A stretch of DNA of 50,884 nucleotides, taken from Thermocrinis sp. GTDB lineage: Bacteria; Aquificota; Aquificia; Aquificales; Aquificaceae. This document shows, one piece after another, positions 15,301-17,318 of the stretch. Position 1 is the stretch's first letter. Each line of letters begins with the position of its first letter. The stretch is taken from assembly GCA_028276475.1 (NCBI GenBank), contig JAPYWH010000009.1, forward strand, positions 1-50,884, in the 5' to 3' direction. Under the pieces are notes generated by a model. That model searched no databases and had not been told where the DNA came from. It was given only the letters and a program-made list of their open reading frames with translations. Position numbers and translations under genes: made by a program.

Positions 15301-15912
15301 CTACCTGCACTTTTTCCAAATCTCCAGAAACTCCTTTAACTTTCTCAGTGCCTTGCCTCTGTGGGAGATAAGGTCCTTTTCCTCTGGACATAGTTCCGCC
15401 ATAGTTTTTTCATAGAACTTTGGTTTGAAAATAGGGTCGTAGCCAAAGCCTCCCGAGCCCTTAGGACTGTGCACGACCTCCCCCTCACAGATGCCCTCGG
15501 AAAAGATGCTCAACCCCTCTTCCAAAACAAGGCACAGAACCGCCTTAAAGTATGCCCTCCTATCGGAAACATCCCTCATGAGTCTGAGAAGTTTTTTTAT
15601 GTTTGCCTCATCCTCCGAAGTTTGAACATCCTCCCTTCCACCCCAATCTATGGAATAGAACCTGCTGGAAAATACACCTGGATAACCTCCAAGGGATGGA
15701 ACCACAAGCCCTGAATCATCTGCCAAGGTGGGAATGCGGTATTTTTCAAAGTATGCCATTGCCTTTATGTATGCGTTTTCCATAAAGGAGTTTCCCTTCT
15801 CTTCCACGTTCAACTTTTCCTCTGGCAGTATAACTTCCACCGAGAGCGGTTCCAACATTCTCTTGATCTCTTTGTGCTTTCCCAAGTTTTGGGTTGCAAG
15901 TAGGATTTTCAT
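15301..15912 (-). CDS. rdgB: XTP/dITP diphosphatase (Ham1/RdgB family)
   Basis: House-cleaning pyrophosphatase that hydrolyses dITP, XTP and ITP to monophosphates and keeps deaminated purines out of DNA. The family start MKILLATQNLGKHKEIKRML matches the substrate-binding T/S-x-N-x-x-K motif, followed by the metal-binding LADDSGLVVPSLGGYPGVFSSRF. Near the C-terminus GGFGYDPIFKP and SHRGKALRKL are both typical. Length 203 aa. The start ATG 15912 has a TATATT box 7 nt upstream on the minus strand. Confidence 0.93.
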   Translation of the reverse strand: MKILLATQNLGKHKEIKRMLEPLSVEVILPEEKLNVEEKGNSFMENAYIKAMAYFEKYRIPTLADDSGLVVPSLGGYPGVFSSRFYSIDWGGREDVQTSEDEANIKKLLRLMRDVSDRRAYFKAVLCLVLEEGLSIFSEGICEGEVVHSPKGSGGFGYDPIFKPKFYEKTMAELCPEEKDLISHRGKALRKLKEFLEIWKKCR

Positions 15913-15931
15913 TGATTAAAATATATTAGCA
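15913..15931. promoter_or_regulatory. 19-bp bidirectional promoter between rdgB and tRNA-Pro
   Basis: On the minus strand TATATT (15920-15925) lies 7 nt before the rdgB ATG. On the plus strand TAAAAT (15917-15922) ends 9 nt before the first base of tRNA-Pro. The two boxes share bases, and the whole gap is 19 bp. Transcription of the tRNA would start at or within a few bases of its mature 5' end. Confidence 0.5.
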
Positions 15932-16004
15932 CGGGGTGTAGCTCAGGTGGAAGAGCGCTGGCTTTGGGAGCCAGAGGTCGCAGGTTCAAGTCCTGTCGCC
16001 CCGA
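15932..16004 (+). tRNA. tRNA-Pro (anticodon UGG)
   Basis: Full cloverleaf: acceptor CGGGGTG pairs with CGCCCCG, D stem GCTC/GAGC, anticodon stem CTGGC/GCCAG with loop TTTGGGA (TGG at the anticodon), T stem GCAGG/CCTGT with TTCAAGT loop, discriminator A at 16004. CCA is not encoded. The next tRNA begins at the following base. Confidence 0.95.
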
Positions 16005-16078
16005 GGGTCCGTAGCTCAGCTGGACAGAGCAAGGGATTTCTAATCCCTAGGTCGGGGGTTCGAGTCCCTCCGGGCCCG
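16005..16078 (+). tRNA. tRNA-Arg (anticodon UCU)
   Basis: Full cloverleaf: acceptor GGGTCCG with CGGGCCC (one G-U pair), D stem GCTC/GAGC, anticodon stem AGGGA/TCCCT with loop TTTCTAA (TCT), T stem GGGGG/CCCTC with TTCGAGT loop, discriminator G at 16078. CCA is not encoded. It starts directly after tRNA-Pro without any spacer. It decodes AGA/AGG, the main Arg codons of this genome. Confidence 0.95.
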
Positions 16079-16087
16079 CTTGTTTTT

Positions 16088-16705
16088 ATTCATGGCTTTG
16101 GCTTTTCCTCAGAGGTCTTTAAAGCCTTTCCCGGCGTAAAGATAGACCTGCCCTTTCACGGAAAGTCTAACCTAAAAAGCAATAACCTTAGGGCTTTAGC
16201 CCGAGAGATTGCGTCAAGCATCCCCAACAACTCTACGGTGGTAGGTTGGTCTATGGGTGGCACCTTAGCCCTCCTTTTAGCCCTGCTCTTTCCCTCTAAG
16301 GTAAAAGCCCTGCTTTTAATAGGTGCCACCGCATGCTTTTCTTGCCTTTGGGACAGGAAAAACCTAAAGGGCTTTTTGCTAAGGCTCAGGAAGGAAAGGG
16401 AGGAGTTTTTGAAGGAGTTCAGAAAGAGGGCATACCCAAAGCCCTTTGATGCAAAGGTGGAACTGGAGGGAGCCCTTGAGCTTTTGGAGGATTACTTTTC
16501 CACAGACCTAAGAAGCTATATCCCCCACATAAATAAACCCATTCTCTTACTTCATGGCACAGAAGACCCTGTCGTTCCTCTCAGGGGTGCCCTTGAGCTT
16601 TACAATCTGGGTAAGAGGGCTAAATTAATAACCTTTGCTGGAGGACACTTCCCGGAAAATGAAGCTGTTATCTTTAAGGTTCTCAAGGGCATCGAATACC
16701 TATGA
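16088..16705 (+). CDS. bioH: Alpha/beta hydrolase, BioH-like (start codon uncertain)
   Basis: A compact alpha/beta hydrolase: oxyanion-hole HGFG at the very start, nucleophile Ser in GWSMGG, acid Asp in HGTEDPVVPL and His in AGGHFPENE. The adjacent bioC suggests the BioH role, hydrolysing pimeloyl-ACP methyl ester in biotin synthesis. The frame has no ATG, GTG or TTG between tRNA-Arg and HGFG; ATT at 16088 is the only near-cognate candidate, and the nearest upstream in-frame GTG is inside tRNA-Pro. An ATG at 16092 is out of frame. The first base after tRNA-Arg is only 9 nt from the ATT. It overlaps bioC by 47 nt. Confidence 0.75.
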   Translation: MHGFGFSSEVFKAFPGVKIDLPFHGKSNLKSNNLRALAREIASSIPNNSTVVGWSMGGTLALLLALLFPSKVKALLLIGATACFSCLWDRKNLKGFLLRLRKEREEFLKEFRKRAYPKPFDAKVELEGALELLEDYFSTDLRSYIPHINKPILLLHGTEDPVVPLRGALELYNLGKRAKLITFAGGHFPENEAVIFKVLKGIEYL

Positions 16706-17318
16706 AGATTGGGCAATCCCCCAAAGGCAAAGTGCGGAGATTCTAAAGTGCTTAGACACGATTGAGGGTTCGGTCCTTGATGTGGGCTGTGGCACCGGCT
16801 TTTGTAGTGAAGGCTTGGAAAAGGTGGTGGGTATTGATATCTCTCAGAGCATGCTGAGGATATACAAACAGAAAGGTTTTCTGGGTCTTTGCGCAAGGGC
16901 TGAGGCAATACCCTTTAAGGACAAGAGCTTTGACTGTGTGGTAAGCAACTTTGCCCTGCACTGGACTTCCATAGACCAGAGCTTTAGGGAAATATTCCGG
17001 GTTTGCAGGAAGAAATTCCTCTGTGCCATGCCCGTTAAGGGAAGTCTTGAGCCTTTGAACTTTCCCTTTTTCCATCCGGAGGATATCATTGAAAGGCTTT
17101 ACCATCTCGGAGGAAAACTAAGAAGGGTGGAGCTGAAAGAGTTGGAAATTCCCTTCAAGGGTTGGGATCTTTTAAGGTTCTTTCACTACACGGGTTCTTC
17201 TTACAATCCCTCAAAAGGAGACATTCTCAGGGCTAAAAAGAGCGTTGAAAGGCTTGTCTTTTCCATTGACAAACCTAGCTTTTTGGTGTTATTCTTTTCC
17301 TGCGAGGTTCCACAATGA
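16659..17318 (+). CDS. bioC: Malonyl-ACP O-methyltransferase-like protein (BioC)
   Basis: SAM-dependent class I methyltransferase. The SAM loop VLDVGCGTGFCSEGL sits near residue 40, VVGIDISQSML is motif II, and CVVSNFALHW corresponds to the S-N-L-A-L-Q-W stretch typical of BioC. The N-terminal FSRASNTYEDWAIPQRQSAEIL is also BioC-like. BioC methylates malonyl-ACP so that the fatty acid machinery can build pimelate for biotin. ATG 16659 is preferred to a TTG at 16635; GGAGG at 16640-16644 precedes it at a somewhat long distance. The stop overlaps the HtrA start (ATGA). Confidence 0.8.
   Translation: MKLLSLRFSRASNTYEDWAIPQRQSAEILKCLDTIEGSVLDVGCGTGFCSEGLEKVVGIDISQSMLRIYKQKGFLGLCARAEAIPFKDKSFDCVVSNFALHWTSIDQSFREIFRVCRKKFLCAMPVKGSLEPLNFPFFHPEDIIERLYHLGGKLRRVELKELEIPFKGWDLLRFFHYTGSSYNPSKGDILRAKKSVERLVFSIDKPSFLVLFFSCEVPQ

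Follow-up and report, generated by a model that had tools for sequence, protein, structure and literature searches.

A BioH-like hydrolase frame open through a zero-gap pair of tRNA genes in Thermocrinis and related Aquificaceae

Known systems and the locus in the window

The closest described system is found in Alphaproteobacteria, where the gene for tRNA-Sec (selC) is nested in the selB frame; the study that described it presents it as the first known nesting of a tRNA within an ORF of bacteria (Mukai 2021, PMC8124441). An alternative-fate logic was proposed there, by which the RNA serves either as tRNA or as message, and translation of the tRNA part is putative in that system too (PMC8124441). 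Literature searches for bacterial start codons located inside tRNAs turned up no work other than this study. In the tRNA punctuation of animal mitochondria, tRNAs and protein genes abut one another, and the cuts at the tRNAs define the ends of the other RNAs. The thrU-tyrU-glyT-thrT-tufB operons begin with tRNAs that are co-transcribed with a protein gene. Meanwhile, the leaderless tRNAs of Nanoarchaeum equitans have a promoter close before the tRNA.

Here we describe a locus of Thermocrinis sp. in which the frame of a BioH-like hydrolase runs through two tandem tRNA genes. It lies in the window, by which we mean the whole stretch of DNA that was analysed (50,884 nucleotides). Its features are as follows:

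15301..15912, minus strand: rdgB/HAM1-type NTP pyrophosphatase gene, divergent (Ham1p_like, E=1.2e-56; NF011399 over cut-off)
15894..15899, plus strand: TTGCAA, a -35-like hexamer that falls within the beginning of rdgB
15917..15922, plus strand: -10-like hexamer TAAAAT, ending 9 nt before tRNA-Pro
15932..16004, plus strand: tRNA-Pro(UGG), by ARAGORN and Rfam, no encoded CCA
15933..15938, plus strand: GGGGTG, putative Shine-Dalgarno sequence in the 5' acceptor strand of tRNA-Pro, 8 nt before GTG15947
15947..15949, plus strand: GTG, putative start codon in the D-arm of tRNA-Pro, the only in-frame ATG/GTG/TTG before the hydrolase core
15947..16705, plus strand: BioH-like alpha/beta hydrolase frame, with its leader of 44 residues encoded in the tRNAs (Abhydrolase_1, E=1.4e-17)
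16005..16078, plus strand: tRNA-Arg(UCU), by ARAGORN and Rfam, 0 bases after tRNA-Pro, no encoded CCA
16025..16027, plus strand: CAG, triplet of the D-loop that is in phase with the hydrolase and reads TAG, a stop, in the majority of unlinked relatives
16635..17318, plus strand: BioC-like methyltransferase gene, overlapping the hydrolase end, start approximate (TIGR02072 best match)

This locus resembles selB-selC in that a functional tRNA lies in frame inside a bacterial ORF and the phase of the ORF fits the tRNA length. In both, the overlap is lost in some relatives, and tRNA processing would destroy the message, so that the products are alternatives. However, selC extends the C-terminus of its own partner protein from the 3' end of the gene, whereas here the 5' end is occupied by two tandem elongator tRNAs, within which lies the sole standard start codon, and the enzyme behind them is unrelated and biotin-pathway-like. 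The mitochondrial message has its own start codon after the cut, but here the cut leaves the message without one. In the tufB operons the protein gene has a ribosome-binding site and start codon of its own behind the tRNA, whereas the BioH-like locus has neither. Unlike in Nanoarchaeum equitans, the protein-only RNase P HARP is present here, the predicted leader has a few bases and 5' cutting would still be needed. The interest of the locus is the nested protein frame more than the spacing of the tRNAs.

The tRNA pair, its promoter and its processing

Both tRNA genes score 66-68 bits. The discriminator A16004 of tRNA-Pro is followed directly by G1 of tRNA-Arg, whose 3' end is placed at G16078 by Rfam and one C further (16079), outside any CCA, by ARAGORN. 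The bases after tRNA-Pro are GGG and those after tRNA-Arg are CTT, and CCA is encoded by neither gene. The earlier note had described a zero-gap tandem without CCA, and both programs and the flanking bases confirm it.

We surveyed tRNA spacing here and in three complete genomes of relatives, which represent three genera (G003, G007 and G016). The Pro-Arg gap was the only one of 0 nt; the remaining tRNA pairs were separated by 3, 4, 5, 6, 9, 10, 13, 14, 16, 17, 19, 20 or 57 nt. The zero gap was present in every related locus with an adjacent pair, across four genera (g1, g2, g5, g11), and Pro/Arg spacing in other Aquificota was 4-52 nt. Among Aquificaceae, for which the earlier note had called for a survey, the zero gap recurs in four genera, but other genera that bear HARP keep 8-52 nt between the two tRNAs.

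A sigma-70-like pair of hexamers, TTGCAA and TAAAAT with a spacer of 17, precedes tRNA-Pro. Of 17 related loci, 15 carried a -10-like hexamer (at least 5/6 positions) at a distance of 5-13 nt upstream of tRNA-Pro, whereas shuffled sequences would give 2.4. Since the box ends 9 nt upstream of the first tRNA base, a leader of about 2-5 nt is predicted, which agrees with the earlier suggestion that the 5' end of tRNA-Pro is near the transcription start. In one relative (G010) we looked for a -10-like box before tRNA-Pro and found none. In the same genome (L120 / L088), a GAPDH-like gene ends with its TGA directly against the first base of tRNA-Pro, and this gene, the two tRNAs and the hydrolase follow one another without spacer.

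The upstream neighbour varies among relatives, being rdgB in Thermocrinis and a GAPDH-like gene in g11 and g5, and the tRNA-Pro/tRNA-Arg/bioH-like/bioC-like block stays intact despite these changes. The ATG of rdgB lies 19 bp from tRNA-Pro. On the minus strand, the interval 15912-15931 holds no Shine-Dalgarno-like sequence for rdgB (-1.5 kcal/mol). The AT-rich sequence TTAAAATATATTA could act as a -10 box for transcription in either direction, and rdgB is a candidate for a leaderless mRNA.

The HARP model TIGR03875 matched 60/61 genomes of the family, including this one. RNase P RNA (RF00010, class A) was found in 0/37 family genomes; in a different family of the order, 16 genomes have it. HARP is thus present and RNase P RNA absent, as in HARP-type 5' processing, and on this point the setting given in the earlier note holds. 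In published assays, a Hydrogenobacter HARP cut precursors lacking CCA about 10-fold faster and accepted leaders of 5-22 nt (PMC10652100); the Pro/Arg layout should therefore be processable. It is plausible that a single HARP cut at the 5' end of tRNA-Arg would leave the exact 3' end of tRNA-Pro. Meanwhile, the only RNase Z match in this genome was weak (32 bits, below cut-off; G000:C9:47091-47492), so that by this model no tRNA 3' endonuclease is evident.

HARP was also considered as the cause of the zero spacing, as the earlier note had implied, and this was rejected: the same pair is 8-52 nt apart in Aquificaceae that bear HARP (g3, g6, g9), and a spacer separates each of the remaining tRNA pairs of this genome.

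This 1.3 Mb genome has a compact style. Besides tRNA-Arg(UCU), about nine tRNAs have a protein gene start 7-19 nt past their 3' end, and each of these downstream genes has its own start codon. Co-transcripts of tRNA and mRNA look common in this genome, whose compact style reaches its extreme at Arg(UCU). Elsewhere in it, tRNAs Thr-Tyr-Gly-Thr are followed by EF-Tu as in E. coli tufB (L020 1243-1574 onward; G000:C10:84470-84799), with gaps of 9, 5 and 14 nt; the EF-Tu gene has AGGAGG and an ATG 19 nt past the tRNA.

The hydrolase frame and its conservation

The hydrolase core (16079-16705) begins at the first base after tRNA-Arg. Its best NCBIfam match is bioH (TIGR01738) with 85.4 bits and its best PDB matches are BioH proteins; as the score is below the equivalog cut-off of 206.95, we call it BioH-like only. 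By the same rule the downstream gene is called BioC-like only, since its TIGR02072 score of 73.5 bits is below the cut-off of 184.95. Adjacency of the BioH-like and BioC-like genes is common to linked and unlinked relatives, linked meaning that the hydrolase lies directly behind the Pro/Arg tRNA pair and unlinked that it lies elsewhere.

Among 12 hydrolase sequences, the HG of the oxyanion site, the serine of W-S-x-G and GGHFP are invariant. In an AlphaFold model of the whole frame, residues 1-38 have pLDDT <50 and the remaining fold is of high confidence. The first strand comprises residues 45-48, and residue 45 is the first after the tRNA. The motifs and the ordered predicted fold identify an alpha/beta hydrolase with conserved nucleophile and histidine motifs. 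The dN/dS of 0.09-0.37 indicates purifying selection on the hydrolase; within the leader, coding constraint is inseparable from tRNA conservation, because the tRNA is itself conserved. A second hydrolase copy elsewhere was ruled out by the single match in each linked genome.

After tRNA-Arg, the frame holds no ATG, GTG or TTG for 158 nt, a distance that extends past the oxyanion HG motif. Upstream it is open through both tRNAs to GTG15947, and it is closed at the TAA of 15917-15919. Both tRNA genes are therefore nested in a frame of the same strand that is open from GTG15947 to 16705, tRNA-Arg wholly and tRNA-Pro mostly, its first 15 nt preceding the GTG. The earlier note does not mention this frame. 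The leader peptides predicted from this frame include WLWEPEVAGSSPVAPR and SGVRVPPGPLVFIHGF, the former encoded upstream of 16043.

Other places for a start were tried and rejected. A start after tRNA-Arg finds no in-frame start codon over the 158 nt, and the codons that follow the tRNA differ between species (CTT/TAC, GTT/TTC/TTT, ATT/ATA/ATC/CTT/CTG/TTA), which leaves no alternative start in common. A leaderless mRNA made by a 3' cut after tRNA-Arg would begin CUUGUU..., without a start codon. The out-of-frame TTG at 16080 meets a stop after about 19 codons, as read by hand, and relatives outside Thermocrinis lack it. A start upstream of tRNA-Pro would have only 12 nt of open frame here and is precluded in G010, where translation must begin within the tRNAs since the TGA abuts the 5' end of tRNA-Pro.

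The frame runs in phase through the tRNAs, likewise with no standard start between tRNA-Arg and the hydrolase core, in 20 of 21 linked loci, from Thermocrinis and three other genera, with one exception; in one of the 20, the contig ends inside tRNA-Pro. The junction between tRNA and hydrolase is one whole codon shorter in G007, which keeps it in frame, and besides one homopolymer case this is the only difference in junction length among the linked loci. The exception is G087 (L095/L143), in which a T homopolymer (9 by eye) right after tRNA-Arg breaks the frame of an otherwise intact hydrolase; transcriptional slippage and sequence error are candidate explanations. Meanwhile, the gene of unlinked relatives begins in the usual way, with a start codon a few codons ahead of the first strand (MFKNP-, GTG-Ser-Ala-Asn, TTG-Ser-Lys).

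The protein tree groups all linked sequences into a single supported clade, which also contains unlinked sequences of Hydrogenobacter and T. albus. Three changes between linked and unlinked are required on this tree, which may represent one gain and two losses. The linked layout probably arose once.

The D-loop of tRNA-Arg reads GGA-NAG-AGC in the hydrolase frame, and N=T gives an in-frame TAG. In 136 Aquificota genomes, N was C in 21/21 linked genomes (four of them assigned via a D-arm identical to that of linked named loci), and among the unlinked it was T in about 76/91 and C in about 15/91. T. albus (G004), of the same genus and with its hydrolase elsewhere, has TAG. CAG without linkage occurs in g6, in G033 and in some of f3. 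The association between D-loop and linkage gives a Fisher value of 2e-13 with kinship ignored; the independent contrasts on the tree number 1-3 pairs, too few for significance. The restriction to CAG in linked loci points to a start upstream of the triplet, since only such a start position predicts this bias. It is suggestive evidence for GTG15947 over a later non-standard start.

Translation start and competing explanations

Based on these findings, we give about an even chance to a model in which one transcript has two exclusive fates, being either cut to tRNAs or translated to a BioH-like protein with a 44-residue leader. The transcript would begin a few bases before tRNA-Pro and carry tRNA-Pro, tRNA-Arg, the BioH-like hydrolase and the BioC-like methyltransferase. 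In one fate, two HARP cuts, at the start of tRNA-Pro and at its junction with tRNA-Arg, together with a cut by a 3' nuclease behind tRNA-Arg, would release two tRNAs, to which CCA would be added later. In the other, ribosomes would initiate at GTG 15947 on transcripts still unfolded or uncut, assisted by the GGGGUG of the tRNA-Pro acceptor strand, and would read through both tRNAs to make the hydrolase with a disordered leader of 44 residues. Under this proposal, hydrolase output would be low and inverse to tRNA processing, as cutting destroys the message. Biotin enzymes are required in small amounts, so a leaky, low-yield start might be tolerable. The start codon, its translation and the competition between the fates are inferred from sequence.

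Pairing of 15932-15946 with the anti-Shine-Dalgarno sequence reaches -9.0 kcal/mol, against a median of -4.0 and a 5th percentile of -9.5 for random 20-mers, which places the site ahead of GTG15947 near the strongest tenth. Elsewhere in the window, degP (-10.6 kcal/mol) and a sigma factor gene (-11.5 kcal/mol) both pair more strongly than this site. The GTG and the GGGGTG are not adaptations to a role in starting translation, as they are present in the tRNA-Pro of relatives regardless of linkage. A stably folded tRNA of a thermophile would hinder initiation. A fuller version of the two-fate model is more tentative, and we place it somewhat short of even: the elongator tRNA pair would act as ribosome-binding site, start codon and N-terminal coding region, the transcript would yield two tRNAs or one mRNA, with HARP activity weighing translation supply against a biotin-pathway enzyme, and the D-loop would be shaped by stop avoidance.

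Translation might instead begin within the 3' half of tRNA-Arg, at a non-canonical codon such as AUC 16043-16045, giving a leader of about 12 residues and leaving tRNA-Pro uninvolved. We regard this as unlikely. The AUC lies in the anticodon arm and is preceded by AAGGGA, with weak anti-Shine-Dalgarno pairing (-6.0 kcal/mol); the tRNA being conserved, it is in frame in all linked loci, and the shorter leader is closer to the 2-5 residues of unlinked homologues. However, bacteria initiate very poorly at AUC, initiation would still occur inside a tRNA, and the CAG-only D-loop of all 21 linked loci would be left unexplained, which the two-fate model accommodates by its upstream start. The frame could also be a product of chance, left by compact packing after a gene-fusing deletion, with a hydrolase that is poorly or not translated and is being lost or rescued by, for example, transcriptional slippage. 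The compact style of the genome, with gene starts 7-19 nt beyond some nine other tRNAs, the broken frame in one linked genome and the probable single origin of the linked layout are consistent with this. Yet the hydrolase is under purifying selection by its dN/dS, keeps intact motifs and full length in four genera, is the sole copy in each genome and has its junction in frame in 20/21 loci, which makes chance packing improbable.

An explanation from processing alone, in which the zero gap is a HARP-linked minimal layout where one cut serves both ends, the leader is short by virtue of an adjacent transcription start and the protein gene is incidental, appears to us very improbable. The presence of HARP in a family in which RNase P RNA was not found, the better cleavage of CCA-less precursors by HARP (PMC10652100) and the -10 box 9 nt before tRNA-Pro all agree with it. 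Against it stand the spacing of 8-52 nt in other Aquificaceae with HARP and the gaps in all other tRNA pairs, as well as G010, where the protein gene that abuts tRNA-Pro implies a long leader. It also does not account for the missing start codon of the hydrolase.

If true, the two-fate model would describe a bacterial protein whose translation starts inside a tRNA and which has been kept across several genera. The maturation of tRNA by a protein-only RNase P would be tied directly to the expression of a metabolic gene, and an overlapping protein frame could constrain the sequence of a tRNA. Gene callers that forbid overlap between CDS and tRNA would truncate, mis-start or miss such genes.

Among the database records, RFFP01000017.1 (L097) has the title Acidobacteria bacterium isolate J001, but its tRNA-Pro, tRNA-Arg, hydrolase and BioC-like gene form a locus typical of Aquificaceae; this assembly is probably mislabelled or mis-binned.
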